Source: Athalassotoga saccharophila (lineage in GTDB: Bacteria > Thermotogota > Thermotogae > Mesoaciditogales > Mesoaciditogaceae). Taken from it: a DNA stretch of 64,000 nucleotides. The notes beneath the pieces are model-generated. The model had not been told where the DNA came from. It worked only from the letters and a program-made list of their open reading frames with translations, and did not search any database. This document shows positions 34,444 to 40,731 of the stretch, piece after piece. The first letter of the stretch is position 1. Each line of letters begins with the position of its first letter. The position numbers and the translations under genes are program-made. The stretch spans positions 589,501 to 653,500 of the forward strand of contig NZ_AP019551.1 in assembly GCF_009936215.1 (NCBI RefSeq). Reading direction: 5' to 3'.

Positions 34444-34531
34444 GCCGAGGTGGTGGAATTGGCAGACACGCAAGATTCAGGTTCTTGTGGGCGCATAGCC
34501 CATGCGGGTTCAAGTCCCGCCCTCGGCACCA
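34444..34531 (+). tRNA. tRNA-Leu (anticodon CAG)
   Basis: An 88-nt type II tRNA: acceptor GCCGAGG/CCTCGGC, anticodon arm CAAGA-TTCAGGT-TCTTG, a long variable arm, T arm GCGGG-TTCAAGT-CCCGC, and an encoded CCA end. The anticodon CAG reads CUG. Confidence 0.96.
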
Positions 34532-34561: not shown

Positions 34562-34590
34562 TTGACAAATAAGGTTTTTAAGTATATAAT
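34562..34590 (+). promoter_or_regulatory. Strong sigma-A promoter of the giant lipoprotein gene
   Basis: A perfect TTGACA (34562-34567), a 17-bp spacer and a perfect TATAAT (34585-34590). Transcription should start near 34597, leaving a leader of about 125 bases. Confidence 0.88.
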
Positions 34591-34633
34591 TTCTTGAAAG
34601 AGTTTTTATCTCCCGAAAAGGGGGTTAGACAGT

Positions 34634-34726
34634 ATGCAATATGTTTTTTCAAAAAATCAAAATGTAATTACATCTCGAAGGGAGGTGTTTTCCTGCAACC
34701 CACAGGGTAAGCAGGAGAATGAATGA
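34634..34726 (+). CDS. Leader ORF (30 codons) coupled to the giant lipoprotein
   Basis: ATG 34634 has GGGGG nine bases upstream and reads 30 codons to TGA 34724, which overlaps the lipoprotein ATG 34723 (ATGA). The peptide (begins MQYVFSKNQNV) has no known similarity. Within it, TCCTGC (34691-34696) can pair with GCAGGA (34711-34716), covering the main gene's Shine-Dalgarno sequence, so translating the leader could open that hairpin. Confidence 0.55.
   Translation: MQYVFSKNQNVITSRREVFSCNPQGKQENE
34691..34716 (+). promoter_or_regulatory. Hairpin covering the lipoprotein ribosome-binding site
   Basis: TCCTGC pairs with GCAGGA around an inner CCC-ACA-GGG, placing most of the AGGAG site in a stem. 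A second strong SD-like GGGAGGTG lies at 34680-34687, with no start codon at proper spacing. Confidence 0.5.
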
Positions 34727-37700
34727 GTAAAAAGATTTTAGGTCTCGTTGTCTCCGTGGCCCTGCTTATGGTTGTGCTGTCCGGCTGTTTCCTCTTGCCG
34801 CAGATAGACACATTTACGCCGCTTGTAACGATCGTTTCACCGGCGCCAAGCCAGACCATAACAGTGCCAACATCCACAAGTTCTACCAATGTAACAGTCA
34901 CAGCAACAGTCCTGGCTCACAGCCCGATCCAGTCCGTTCAGGTTTCGCTTGTTCAAAATGGACAGAATTATGGTACATTTAACATGAGCGGTGCCTTCGG
35001 GCAGAATACTGGGTCATTTAGTTACACATTTACCAATCTGCCAGTTGGAAGTTATTATTTAACGGTTACTGCTCAGAGCGGAGCAAAGACTCCGGGAAGC
35101 GCTTCCCAGAAGTTCACAATCGCTTCGGCCCAACCCGTAACCCCGCCATCGACAAAGTACGCAGCGCCGGTTGTTAGCCTTATCAACGTTGCCCCGAATT
35201 ATCAGGGCAAATACTACGTTGCACAGTCTCCTATAACCTTCAGCGCGACAGTTACCAACCCGAACAAAGTTGGGCAGGTTGCTGTGTGGGCAAGTGTTAA
35301 CGGTCAGACAATTCAGCCAAACAACAACGCCAATCCATACACATTTACATGGACACCATCTTCAACCGGAACATACACGCTTTATGTCAACGCTACAGTT
35401 ACAATAGGCGCATCGACAGTTTCCGGATCTAACTCCGTCGTTATCAAGGTGCCATACATTTCTCCTGCTGTCAACAGTGTAAACACGCCTTCAAGACTTG
35501 TTATGGCAACAACGACTCCTGCATCCTTCACATTCACAACAACTCCAGGAGTTAGCGCATACCTTTCTATAAATGGTGGATCAGCCGCAACATACACATC
35601 TCAAAGCCCAATAGCCAATGTCAAACTTCTTCCAAACCAGTGGAATACTTTGACATTGACATTCAAAGATCCATGGGGATACACGATCCAGACTGCGGTT
35701 GCTACAGTGCTCGGAGTTCAGACATCTAATCCTGCCAACACTCCATACGTCTTCTTAATAGACAAAGCGGGACACGTTGTCAACACCAATGACTGGATAT
35801 CAATACCTGCCGGATCTAATCTTGATCTTTACGGATACATCCAGGCCGGATCCCAGCCTATCACATCTTTCAATCTTACACAGCAGTACTTCACAAGCAA
35901 GATGTTAACAACATCTATAGCCGGACCCGGAACAGTTTTGTCTGGAAGTTATCCAACTCCACAAAATATAGTTCCTATCAAATTGCTTGCATATCTCTTT
36001 AATCCACAGGTCGCTCCAAATCATGCTTATGTGACATTTAGCATAAATGTTAACAACACATCAATTGCCTTCTTAAGATACGATGTTTCTCCTGTGACGG
36101 CTGCTCCTGTTGTAACTCTTAGTTCAACCGGAACATACGAAGGAGTTCCCGCTCAAGTTACAGTCAACGTTAACTCTTTACAGCCGATAACTGGTATAAC
36201 ACTTGGAGTGCCGGTTAAGGTTAATTCTCCATTCACAGGATATTCAACGACAACGGCATACAGTAATGCACAAAACGGAACGAATTCGATGAGTTTTACC
36301 TATAACCTCATTGAGCCTGTAAGCGCAGTTCAGGCCAATGGCGCGAATGCTTACGGATTTGTTTACGGAAGTCAGAATTACAAAGTTGCGTTCTACGGTC
36401 CATCCGGAATATACACAATAGGCGCGACAGTTGCTGGAATTGCCAACATGACAACTTATGCGACGACAAATTACGCAGTTCAGGCCGACACATCTGCTCC
36501 TACAGTTAAAGTTACATACGCCGGATCCTCCGTTTCGATATCTGGCATTTCAATACCGGTGTACTACGGACCGATGACGATTGAAGCCACGGTCAACGAT
36601 GATCATGCCATATACTGGGCAATGATGACATCTCCTGCCACAGCATTCCTTGTCTATCCAAATAACAGTAACATAGCCAACTATGGTCAGAGAGCAACAA
36701 CGATAACGGCAAAAGTGTCATTTACACAGCCCGGGACTTACAACGCTTACATAATAGCCTCAGATAAACACTTCGATCCGACAACATTCACTCTTAACCA
36801 GACAGTTCTTGGAACTGGAAACACCGTTAGAACTCCAAATTATCCAGTTCTCTACTCCAATGTTGCACCTCAGGCAACGGCAATTGGCGGACAGTACCAG
36901 CAGACCGTTAACACCGAAAAATACGCGTTTGCAGTTTCCGCTAAGGATAACGTTGGTGGGTACAGTTTGCTTTCTCCAACGGCATTCGTAAGACTCGTTC
37001 CTATAAAAAATTCAAATGCCACGACAGTTACATTGACCGCGACATTTGGAACAACGCTTCCACAGCAGCCCAACTATTACTCTGCGACAATAAGCACGTA
37101 TGGCCTGACCAACCAGACACAGTATAATGTCTGGATAGGCGTCAAAGACCTCATCTACGATGCACTTGCCGCTCAAGGCGCACCACAGTCTTTGCTCAGT
37201 CAACATATCACATGGGTTAACTGGGGAATCATAACGGTTGATCTTGTGTATCCAAATGTTACACTCTCTGCCGGTACACAATATCAGCCTCTTTCTGCAA
37301 CTCCGACGACAGTTTCTACAACGGTCTTCAGAGTTGATATCAACAACGACCCAGACTTCCCATGGGGACAGTTTGCAGAGAATAATTACAACCAGTTGCT
37401 CAATTACATAAACGTTCAGGTTGGCAACGCGATCAATGGATTCAACACGGCCGCCTACGTCATACCGCTTCAGGTAACCCAGACATCCACACAGTCAGGA
37501 TACTTCCTCTTTGCAATTCCTGGACTTTACCAGAACGTTGGAATGACGAATCAGGTTGCAACCCAGACGATACAGGTCTCCGTCTACAATTCAATACAGC
37601 CAGAGAAGTCTATATTCGGTCAGATTGTAAGGACAGTCATTCCACAAATACCATTCACAGTCTCCATCTCTGGAGTTGGCGTGACCAGCACGGCAAATGG

Positions 37701-40700
37701 CATGGCCGCAACACCGGTTATCAACACCACCGGTACTTACACGTTGCCTGTAACAATTTCTGGCCTCACACCGAATCCACAGCCCAACATGACATTGACC
37801 TTCATGGTCAACAATACGCCAGCCTTAACTGTACAGGCAGCCAATGGAACATATAACGTACCAGTTCCGACACCTGCTGGCACTGCATTGACAAGCGTTA
37901 GGGTGCTTTACGCTCCGTCATATTATCAGGTACCGGGTGCCGCGAGAGTTAATGTGCAGTCCTTCAACATTCCGTCAACATACCAGTACTTCAGATACTT
38001 CTCTACATTCTACACACTCGGCGACAACATAACCCCATCTGCCACATTGACACTCAATGGTGTAAGCATAAATGGACAGGCAACGGTTTTGACGAAACCA
38101 TTCAATTACACCTATTCAATAAATGGCGTCCTCTATTACCTGCATGATTTGGCAGTTACGTCCAAATTTGCAACAGGTAACAACACAACAATAAGCGGAG
38201 TCGTTAACTTCTCCTCTTACTCAACATCTACAACAACTGTCGCAACAACGACTCTGAAGGCAACGTCATTGCTCTCATCCCTTGGATTTGAACAGGGCAG
38301 CAAGTGGACGATATCCAAACTCTCAACAAAGACATTCTCGATGCCTGGAGTCTACAATATATCCTTTACAGGAAATGATCCAAGACTTGGAACCACGACA
38401 GTTAGCGCAACTGTTGCATTCGATCCATACGCGCCTGTCATCTCCGGTGTAAAACTCAATGGAAATGCAGTTCCTAACGTTACATCCGGACTCGTTCCTG
38501 TCATAGCCAACGGCAACACGATAAGCGCAGTCGCGACGGATTACGCAGGAGTACAGTCTGCTAAGATATCCGTTGTGGAACTTATAGACAATGCGGCAAC
38601 ATCTTACGCAATGACGAATCACTTTGGTCTGAAGGCCTTCACGGCAACTGCACAGGCCAATGTAACATTACCAACCGTCTTTGCTCCGCAATATCAGAAC
38701 CTGCCATATGAGGTTACATTCTACGCAACCAACGTGGCCGGTCTCGGTGCGCAGCCTGTTACAAGGCTCTTTGTGACCAACGTCGATCACAGCCCGAAGA
38801 TACTTAACATAAAAGCAGTTGCTCCAAATCAGGCAGTTGTAACGTTGTCCGAGCCTATGTGGGTTAACGGCTTCAAAGCCTTCACGGCAAATTCTGCAAC
38901 TTACGGCGGAACAATAACCTCTACCAACATATCGCCAGTTACAGTGCTTGCCAATTATCAGGGCTATGGAATAGCCGCTCAATTCACAGTTACATTCGGA
39001 TACAACGTCTGGACACCTTCACAAGTTGGCAATTCTGTCTTCACCGACCTTTCCAACGTCCAACTCTCATCGAGCATATCGACTTACGTGCCAATAGTTG
39101 ATCTTGCTGGAAACACATTCGCAATGCCAATCAACACAACAACACCACCAACACTTTTCGTAAGCCCGACATCAACGGTTGTTGGAAAAGGTTGGAATGT
39201 AACATTCACAGTTAACGCAACAAGCGCCGCTGGAATTAAAGAAGTAGTTGGCAGTTTCAATGGCCAGACTAAATATGTCTATGGACCAACCGGTTCAATG
39301 ACATTCGTTGCTCCAACTGTCAGCGGAACTTACACGGCATCCTTCACAGCACAAGACGAATCTGTCAACCAGAACAAGACGACGGTAACGGCTCTTGTCT
39401 ACGTCAACACTGCTGCCCCATCTCTTACATTGACAGCGCCTGCAACGGTTGGATCTGGTATGTCATTTACCGCAACAGTTAAGGCAACGGTTGGAGATCC
39501 ACATGGAAGCAATGTTATAAAATCTGTTGCTGTCTATTACGGAACACAAAAATTTGTCGCAGTCCAGTCAACAACTAACCCAGCATCTTGGACAGCATCT
39601 GTTACCTTAACAGGTAACCAATATGAGACTCTAACCGCCATTGCAACAGACCTTTACGGAAACAGTGCATCGAAATCTACTTCTGTTTACGTTGATGATC
39701 AGGCGCCGACAATAACTGTAACGTTAATTGGCGGCACTGGATCTACATTGTCACCATACACGTTGACCACTGGTTCGTCCGTTACTCTGTATACTTCAAG
39801 TCTATCAGGACTTTCTGGAACTATAACTGTCGTTGACAATTCCAAGATGCCTGTTACCGCGATTGCAACAGAATCTACTACTCATTCGACAAAACTTACG
39901 TTCACAACAACATCAGGTGCATCAGTTGCGACCTTTAAAGCGACAGGAACTGTTAATGGTCATTTGCAATACACGATTAAGGCTTCTTCAACGGATCATT
40001 TCGGCCACAACGCAACATATCTTGCGACATTCACACTTGTGGTAGATACGCAAGGTCCAACAGTTGCTGCAACGGCACCAACAACAGAACTTAGCACTAC
40101 TTCTACTTATGCGTCGGTGACTTACAAAGCATATGATGATATAAGTGGCATAGTCGGCAATCAGGCAACGTTAACCATAACATCTAAAGTTGCAGGAACA
40201 TCACCGATAACTCTTTATGAAAATTCAACTACTGCATCAAAGACGATCAACGTTCTTCCTAATTTGTTGGCCAATGGTTTTGCCGGTAAGTCTGGAAGCG
40301 CTACGGTAACTGTTACTGCCAAGAGTAATTCCGGTGTCCTTAGGTCAACGACAAATTCCGGTAATGTGATCAACTTCAATTTCACATTCAATATCACGAA
40401 TGTTCAACGATTAACTACATCCGGATCGCCAGTTGTCATAACATTTAACACTGTTGCTAAAGCCAATAGCAGTTTCACACCATCAAATGTCTACTTTGTC
40501 AATACAAGCAATGGCATTACATATCAAGCATCGGCAATAGTTGTTCCAACGGGCACAACCAAAGTTGCAACAATTACTCAGTTCTCAATTCTTGGATCCA
40601 ATGCGCTTGTGACATCTCAGAATCTACCGAGTGGTTCCTACAAAGTTTACGTTTCTAACATAGTGGGTGCTACTCCAACGACAAATAATGCACAAGTTGC

Positions 40701-40731
40701 GAATAGTCCATATTCCGGTTCAATACAATAA
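34723..40731 (+). CDS. Giant surface lipoprotein with Ig-like repeats
   Basis: 2002 residues. The N-terminus is a lipoprotein signal (VALLMVVLSGCF, lipobox Cys at about residue 23). The rest is rich in Thr, Ser, Asn and Val and poor in Lys and Glu, unlike neighbouring proteins. It consists of many beta-sandwich segments of roughly 90-110 residues with endings such as TYTLYVNATV, TYTASFTAQD and DTSAPTVKV, typical of bacterial Ig-like or cadherin-like domains. No enzyme domain or sortase motif is visible. A structural envelope or adhesive role is inferred. The gene has its own strong promoter, a coupled leader ORF and a strong terminator, suggesting high, controlled expression. Confidence 0.85.
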   Translation: MSKKILGLVVSVALLMVVLSGCFLLPQIDTFTPLVTIVSPAPSQTITVPTSTSSTNVTVTATVLAHSPIQSVQVSLVQNGQNYGTFNMSGAFGQNTGSFSYTFTNLPVGSYYLTVTAQSGAKTPGSASQKFTIASAQPVTPPSTKYAAPVVSLINVAPNYQGKYYVAQSPITFSATVTNPNKVGQVAVWASVNGQTIQPNNNANPYTFTWTPSSTGTYTLYVNATVTIGASTVSGSNSVVIKVPYISPAVNSVNTPSRLVMATTTPASFTFTTTPGVSAYLSINGGSAATYTSQSPIANVKLLPNQWNTLTLTFKDPWGYTIQTAVATVLGVQTSNPANTPYVFLIDKAGHVVNTNDWISIPAGSNLDLYGYIQAGSQPITSFNLTQQYFTSKMLTTSIAGPGTVLSGSYPTPQNIVPIKLLAYLFNPQVAPNHAYVTFSINVNNTSIAFLRYDVSPVTAAPVVTLSSTGTYEGVPAQVTVNVNSLQPITGITLGVPVKVNSPFTGYSTTTAYSNAQNGTNSMSFTYNLIEPVSAVQANGANAYGFVYGSQNYKVAFYGPSGIYTIGATVAGIANMTTYATTNYAVQADTSAPTVKVTYAGSSVSISGISIPVYYGPMTIEATVNDDHAIYWAMMTSPATAFLVYPNNSNIANYGQRATTITAKVSFTQPGTYNAYIIASDKHFDPTTFTLNQTVLGTGNTVRTPNYPVLYSNVAPQATAIGGQYQQTVNTEKYAFAVSAKDNVGGYSLLSPTAFVRLVPIKNSNATTVTLTATFGTTLPQQPNYYSATISTYGLTNQTQYNVWIGVKDLIYDALAAQGAPQSLLSQHITWVNWGIITVDLVYPNVTLSAGTQYQPLSATPTTVSTTVFRVDINNDPDFPWGQFAENNYNQLLNYINVQVGNAINGFNTAAYVIPLQVTQTSTQSGYFLFAIPGLYQNVGMTNQVATQTIQVSVYNSIQPEKSIFGQIVRTVIPQIPFTVSISGVGVTSTANGMAATPVINTTGTYTLPVTISGLTPNPQPNMTLTFMVNNTPALTVQAANGTYNVPVPTPAGTALTSVRVLYAPSYYQVPGAARVNVQSFNIPSTYQYFRYFSTFYTLGDNITPSATLTLNGVSINGQATVLTKPFNYTYSINGVLYYLHDLAVTSKFATGNNTTISGVVNFSSYSTSTTTVATTTLKATSLLSSLGFEQGSKWTISKLSTKTFSMPGVYNISFTGNDPRLGTTTVSATVAFDPYAPVISGVKLNGNAVPNVTSGLVPVIANGNTISAVATDYAGVQSAKISVVELIDNAATSYAMTNHFGLKAFTATAQANVTLPTVFAPQYQNLPYEVTFYATNVAGLGAQPVTRLFVTNVDHSPKILNIKAVAPNQAVVTLSEPMWVNGFKAFTANSATYGGTITSTNISPVTVLANYQGYGIAAQFTVTFGYNVWTPSQVGNSVFTDLSNVQLSSSISTYVPIVDLAGNTFAMPINTTTPPTLFVSPTSTVVGKGWNVTFTVNATSAAGIKEVVGSFNGQTKYVYGPTGSMTFVAPTVSGTYTASFTAQDESVNQNKTTVTALVYVNTAAPSLTLTAPATVGSGMSFTATVKATVGDPHGSNVIKSVAVYYGTQKFVAVQSTTNPASWTASVTLTGNQYETLTAIATDLYGNSASKSTSVYVDDQAPTITVTLIGGTGSTLSPYTLTTGSSVTLYTSSLSGLSGTITVVDNSKMPVTAIATESTTHSTKLTFTTTSGASVATFKATGTVNGHLQYTIKASSTDHFGHNATYLATFTLVVDTQGPTVAATAPTTELSTTSTYASVTYKAYDDISGIVGNQATLTITSKVAGTSPITLYENSTTASKTINVLPNLLANGFAGKSGSATVTVTAKSNSGVLRSTTNSGNVINFNFTFNITNVQRLTTSGSPVVITFNTVAKANSSFTPSNVYFVNTSNGITYQASAIVVPTGTTKVATITQFSILGSNALVTSQNLPSGSYKVYVSNIVGATPTTNNAQVANSPYSGSIQ

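Follow-up and report, generated by a model that had tools for sequence, protein, structure and literature searches.

A conserved, structured leader of a giant lipoprotein gene in Athalassotoga saccharophila with the anatomy of both a coupled leader ORF and a split ribosome-binding site

In the leader of E. coli iraD, a short open reading frame (ORF27) is translationally coupled to the gene under the control of CsrA (PMC5574718). Split ribosome-binding sites have been described for genes 25 and 38 of phage T4, in which a hairpin shortens the distance between the Shine–Dalgarno (SD) sequence and the AUG from 27 to 11 nt and from 22 to 5 nt, respectively (PMC3014915). The thrS leader of E. coli also has a split site, and the 30S subunit accommodates a long hairpin between its parts (PMC3936740). 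The locus described here precedes a giant surface lipoprotein gene of Athalassotoga saccharophila NAS-01 (order Mesoaciditogales, Thermotogota), a member of a hot-spring family, and was studied within a window of 64,000 nt, the whole stretch of DNA that was analysed. By analogy, it looks like a new example of these translation-control devices of E. coli and phage T4, and the anatomies of the coupled ORF and of the split site are both present.

The likeness to iraD ORF27 lies in a short leader ORF (27 aa in iraD, 30 here) with its own SD and a stop overlapping the start codon of the gene, and in a downstream SD sequestered by structure. The locus differs from iraD in that the ORF contains a second, invariant SD, in that frame and peptide vary between relatives, and in that coupling and a regulator are only putative here. 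T4 genes 25 and 38 share with it a strong SD that is too distant and an intervening hairpin, predicted here to reduce 37–41 nt to 1–7 nt; however, this hairpin is long, holds an SD of its own and sits in a leader ORF, and the gene is bacterial and chromosomal rather than a phage gene. Like thrS (PMC3936740), it is a bacterial leader with a long hairpin between the parts of the 30S binding site. The upstream part is a single-stranded domain in thrS and a second strong SD here, and no leader ORF is described for thrS in the passage cited. The features, all on the + strand, are as follows.

34444 to 34531, + strand: tRNA-Leu (CAG), the upstream neighbour in 8/8 relatives
34562 to 34590, + strand: promoter TTGACA-17-TATAAT, 12/12 consensus, with the same hexamers in 8/8
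34610 to 34624, + strand: hairpin 1 (CTCCC-GAAAA-GGGGG), which carries the leader SD
34616 to 34624, + strand: SD of the leader ORF, AAAAGGGGG, 9 nt before the ATG; duplex -11.5 kcal/mol
34634 to 34726, + strand: leader ORF, 30 codons, MQYVFSKNQNVITSRREVFSCNPQGKQENE; its TGA stop overlaps the lipoprotein ATG
34670 to 34688, + strand: hairpin 2 (ACATCTC / GAGGTGT; 34670–34676 with 34682–34688), which encloses SD1
34677 to 34687, + strand: SD1, GAAGGGAGGTG, invariant in 8/8; duplex with the anti-SD core -12.9 kcal/mol
34689 to 34718, + strand: hairpin 3 (TTTCCTGC / GCAGGAGA plus inner ACCC / GGGT), which holds SD2 and lies between SD1 and the AUG
34713 to 34717, + strand: SD2 (AGGAG), the SD next to the lipoprotein start, held closed by hairpin 3; it is weaker than SD1, and genomes G001 and G002 have an eroded form
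34723 to 40731, + strand: lipoprotein, 2002 aa, with a signal peptide with LSGC lipobox and bacterial Ig-like domain matches

The giant lipoprotein was found in eight of the ten family genomes and the leader in the same eight; the protein was not found in G003 and G009, both of which are incomplete metagenome-assembled genomes (MAGs). Three of the eight belong to the genus Athalassotoga (G000, the host, G001 and G002) and five to other genera (leaders L004 to L008), and all comparative counts refer to these eight related genomes only. In every one of them, tRNA-Leu(CAG), promoter, leader and gene form one neighbourhood, with the tRNA (34444–34531 in the window) ahead of the lipoprotein promoter. 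A match to the leader in G010 (L011) was rejected as an ordinary SD ahead of the ATG of another gene. Two lipoprotein paralogues of the host genome, one on plasmid contig C2 (L049) and one on the chromosome near 1,182,600 (L050), have an ordinary SD immediately ahead of the ATG and lack a leader of this kind. They are large lipoproteins of 1380 and 1332 aa, their signal peptides are nearly identical, and they share a repeat-like region with residues about 1523–1831 of the window lipoprotein.

The strong consensus promoter claimed by the first-pass annotation is borne out: shuffled sequences yield 1.6 promoter-like sites, and the only perfect one is that at 34562–34590, from which transcription would start at about 34597. 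A consensus promoter followed by a structured leader would also suit a role of the structures chiefly in mRNA stability for an abundant surface protein, with the ORF as a by-product, and abundant surface-layer mRNAs are known to have long structured leaders. This explanation is quite improbable: the conserved structure adjoins the start codon and not the 5' end, and between the transcription start and SD1 the degree of structure is unremarkable (z -1.7 to +0.8).

Hairpin 1 takes another form in the five leaders of other genera, CTAACC-AAAGG-GGGTTAG followed by TTTTTT (with a G-T variant once, in L005). Together with its T run, at L004:1470–1493 and at the same place in L005 to L008, it resembles an intrinsic terminator between promoter and gene, and it also bears the SD of the leader ORF and extends into its TTG start. 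An attenuator at this hairpin is possible in L004 to L008, judging from these motifs. In the window the T run is displaced. About 25–50 nt 5' of hairpin 1, all five leaders conserve another strong SD-like stretch, AAGGAGGG, and short ORFs that begin from it stop at a TAA within hairpin 1 in some of them, not all.

The first-pass annotation overlooked a second, stronger SD in the leader, SD1, with GGGAGGTG at 34680–34687. SD1 lies 46–50 nt upstream of the lipoprotein start. It is what a split site calls for, a strong and conserved SD too far from the AUG, since the GGAGG–AUG spacing is 37–41 nt. Its duplex of -12.9 kcal/mol is the same in all eight genomes, versus -10.3, -7.4 (this genome) and -5.1 kcal/mol (G001 and G002) for SD2, and none of the 22 window genes that were scored has an SD as strong (best -12.4). 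SD1 and the 5' arm of hairpin 3 form the most conserved stretch of the leader, with 19 of 20 nt invariant across the eight genomes. Within the phylum, this 20-nt core, GAAGGGAGGTG[CT]TTTCCTGC, was found in the family only, and two-mismatch matches elsewhere are isolated. A match in a Sedimentisphaerales MAG, from another phylum, was set aside as likely chance, as we estimate that about one is expected for this 20-mer in 257 Gb.

Hairpin 3 lies between SD1 and the AUG. The stretch GCAGGAG (34711–34717), which holds SD2, pairs with TTTCCTGC (34689–34696) inside the leader ORF, and the earlier claim that the lipoprotein SD is enclosed in a hairpin formed within that ORF holds in all eight relatives. 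The predicted unpaired probability of SD2 is 0.13 at 37 °C and 0.15 at 55 °C in this genome, and just 0.13–0.16 over this range in 8/8. The energy of the hairpin alone lies far outside the range of chance (z = -5.2 relative to dinucleotide shuffles, 0/300 of which were as good; -3.6 to -5.2 across the eight genomes). It comprises 13–16 bp, its base is flush with SD1 and it ends 1–4 nt before the AUG. Folding is predicted to leave 1–7 unpaired nt between GGAGG and AUG and would thereby bring SD1 to a functional spacing, and the pairing is conserved. Hairpin pairing is kept in 94% of cells versus 44–59% when the partner is slid, and of the 11 columns that vary in the arms, nine retain pairing (binomial P 0.0003–0.013 for a transition bias of 2–8). 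Nine additional pair types occur in the hairpins, every one a one-sided wobble change; compensatory double changes are absent among the eight genomes. In G001 and G002, SD2 is eroded to GCAGGGAAA, which still pairs with TTTTCCTGC, so that the helix is kept.

A hairpin-enclosed SD is the usual anatomy of an RNA thermometer, in which heat would open hairpin 3 and expose SD2, and the host is a thermophile with a growth temperature of 55 °C (PMC7163026). We consider such a thermometer highly improbable, because hairpin 3 is predicted to stay closed at 55–60 °C in all eight genomes.

The leader ORF starts with the ATG at 34634 and ends with the TGA at 34724–34726, which overlaps the lipoprotein ATG at 34723–34725, exactly as the first-pass annotation placed it, and it has its own SD. 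Taken alone, such a coupled 30-codon ORF in one genome is unremarkable and not beyond chance. About 30–50% (0.3–0.5) of sequences with a shuffled or randomly phased upstream part give one, because any open frame other than that of the lipoprotein must stop in ATGAGTAA; only its recurrence in all eight relatives raises its weight. In each of them an ORF runs from the homologous start site to +4 or +8 of the lipoprotein ATG, with ATG as start codon in Athalassotoga, TTG in other genera and a G-rich SD 8–9 nt before. The anatomy of a coupled leader ORF of the iraD/uof type, with SD, start, stop at the downstream start and a downstream SD sequestered within the ORF, is thus found in 8/8. Among the five other-genus genomes, the start-to-core distance (36, 36, 39, 42 and 39, including the final G of the TTG that precedes AAGGG) and the SD1-to-ATG distance (47, 47, 47, 50 and 50) vary by multiples of three throughout. 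G002 has one base fewer than G001 and G000 and uses another frame, yet this is also open onto the lipoprotein start codon.

Conservation of the frame in relatives had been named as a check in the first-pass annotation, and it does not hold. The invariant core is read in frames that differ between and within clades (RREVFSC in G000 and G001, EGRCFPA in G002, KGGVFL/KGGAFL in other genera), and the leader peptide is not conserved. Third codon positions vary no more than first or second ones (9, 9 and 6). When neutral evolution was simulated, with hand-set branch lengths and indel rates based on observed distances, all frames stayed open with a probability of about 0.05 in the five other-genus genomes, about 0.25 in the three Athalassotoga ones and about 0.01 jointly; 1.8% of column shuffles are without any stop. 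Translation of the leader is suggested by these patterns, and it is unlikely that the peptide itself matters. An N-terminal extension of the lipoprotein, or a frameshift into it, was rejected, as its frame is interrupted by stops a short way upstream in Athalassotoga and by a TGA ahead of SD1 in other genera. A mini-ORF after SD1 (CTG CAA CCC ACA GGG TAA/TGA in Athalassotoga, longer elsewhere) has good spacing to it, but its end varies between clades and a rare start codon is needed; its use is a minor possibility.

These data bear on pure coupling, in which hairpin 3 would be opened only by ribosomes from the leader ORF, which would then initiate anew at the overlapping AUG, and SD1 would be incidental or slow the leader ribosome. 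The 8/8 ends of an SD-bearing ORF at +4 or +8, despite the frame change in G002, speak for it, as do start-to-core and across-loop lengths that, in five genomes, differ by nothing but multiples of three, the low share of stop-free column shuffles and an architecture like that of iraD ORF27 (PMC5574718). Simulated odds of 0.05 and 0.25 and the absent codon-position signal weaken it. Coupling alone also leaves unexplained why SD1 is invariant and stronger than SD2, and why SD2 eroded in G001 and G002 with the pairing retained, and a split site alone leaves the 8/8 ORF ends unexplained. Pure coupling is therefore somewhat unlikely, and we favour a composite of both, at a probability of about 0.45. 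The lipoprotein start would be fed from upstream, through SD1 over a spacer in folded form, and the leader ORF would clear hairpin 2 and/or bring in ribosomes by coupling.

Hairpin 2 (ACATYTY with GAGGTGT across genomes) closes SD1 tightly in Athalassotoga (unpaired 0.15) and weakly in most other genomes (0.4–0.6; 0.2 in G005). It is also where a trans-acting regulator, such as CsrA or another protein or ligand, could bind to switch the leader, hairpin 1 being another candidate site. CsrA is encoded in seven of the ten family genomes, including the host, and works through such an ORF in iraD (PMC5574718); AGGGA at the hairpin 2 loop matches a GGA-type motif, and the invariant SD1 with its flanks could be a protein site. 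However, any SD inherently contains GGA, CsrA was not found in the leader-bearing G001 and G002, and no family of the Rfam 15 covariance models came near the gathering score, let alone above the cut-off, at the leader. A CsrA-type regulator is possible but unsupported, and control by any such factor is improbable.

The elements, their conservation and their pairing can be read in the DNA itself; the use of SD1 across the hairpin, translation of the leader, reinitiation and any regulation are what we infer from them. In the favoured composite, the leader would serve the giant lipoprotein gene as a conserved, structured region for translation initiation. Hairpin 3 would lock SD2 while folding away the stretch from SD1 to the AUG, and a 30S subunit at SD1 could then reach the AUG with hairpin 3 left unopened, as in a split ribosome-binding site. 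Hairpin 2 could close SD1, tightly or loosely depending on the genome, and ribosomes on the leader ORF would open hairpin 2, then hairpin 3, and might reinitiate at the AUG. The output of lipoprotein would thus be supplied by the upstream sites and not by SD2. In footprint folding, the nucleotides under the ribosome were made unpaired by hand, so that geometric compatibility is all that it shows. There, a leader ribosome immediately upstream of SD1 increases the accessibility of SD1 from 0.15 to 0.65–0.83 in the Athalassotoga-genus genomes with hairpin 3 still folded, and a ribosome that terminates at the overlap frees both SD2 and the AUG.

Several points count against the composite. An unpaired spacing of 1–3 nt requires some fraying of the hairpin 3 base, SD1 itself is shut by hairpin 2 in Athalassotoga, and the odds of an open leader ORF are not far from chance. 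In addition, the spacer hairpins of T4 are smaller than hairpin 3. As for translational coupling as first proposed, the locked SD2 and the ORF ends on the lipoprotein start in 8/8, even after a 1-nt indel, stand, and the conservation of a single frame does not. A strict need for leader ribosomes is not supported, because initiation could proceed from the invariant SD1, across the looped-out hairpin, even if the leader were not translated.

If the composite is true, this leader would provide a natural bacterial example, conserved across the family, of a long hairpin between SD and start codon that is accommodated without being opened, in the setting of a giant surface protein gene of a deep-branching thermophile. 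The eight natural variants, with an eroded SD2, the frame change of G002 and a loose or tight hairpin 2, make both modes separable. If the ordinary explanation applies, the locus would still be a clean example of leader-ORF coupling beyond model bacteria.
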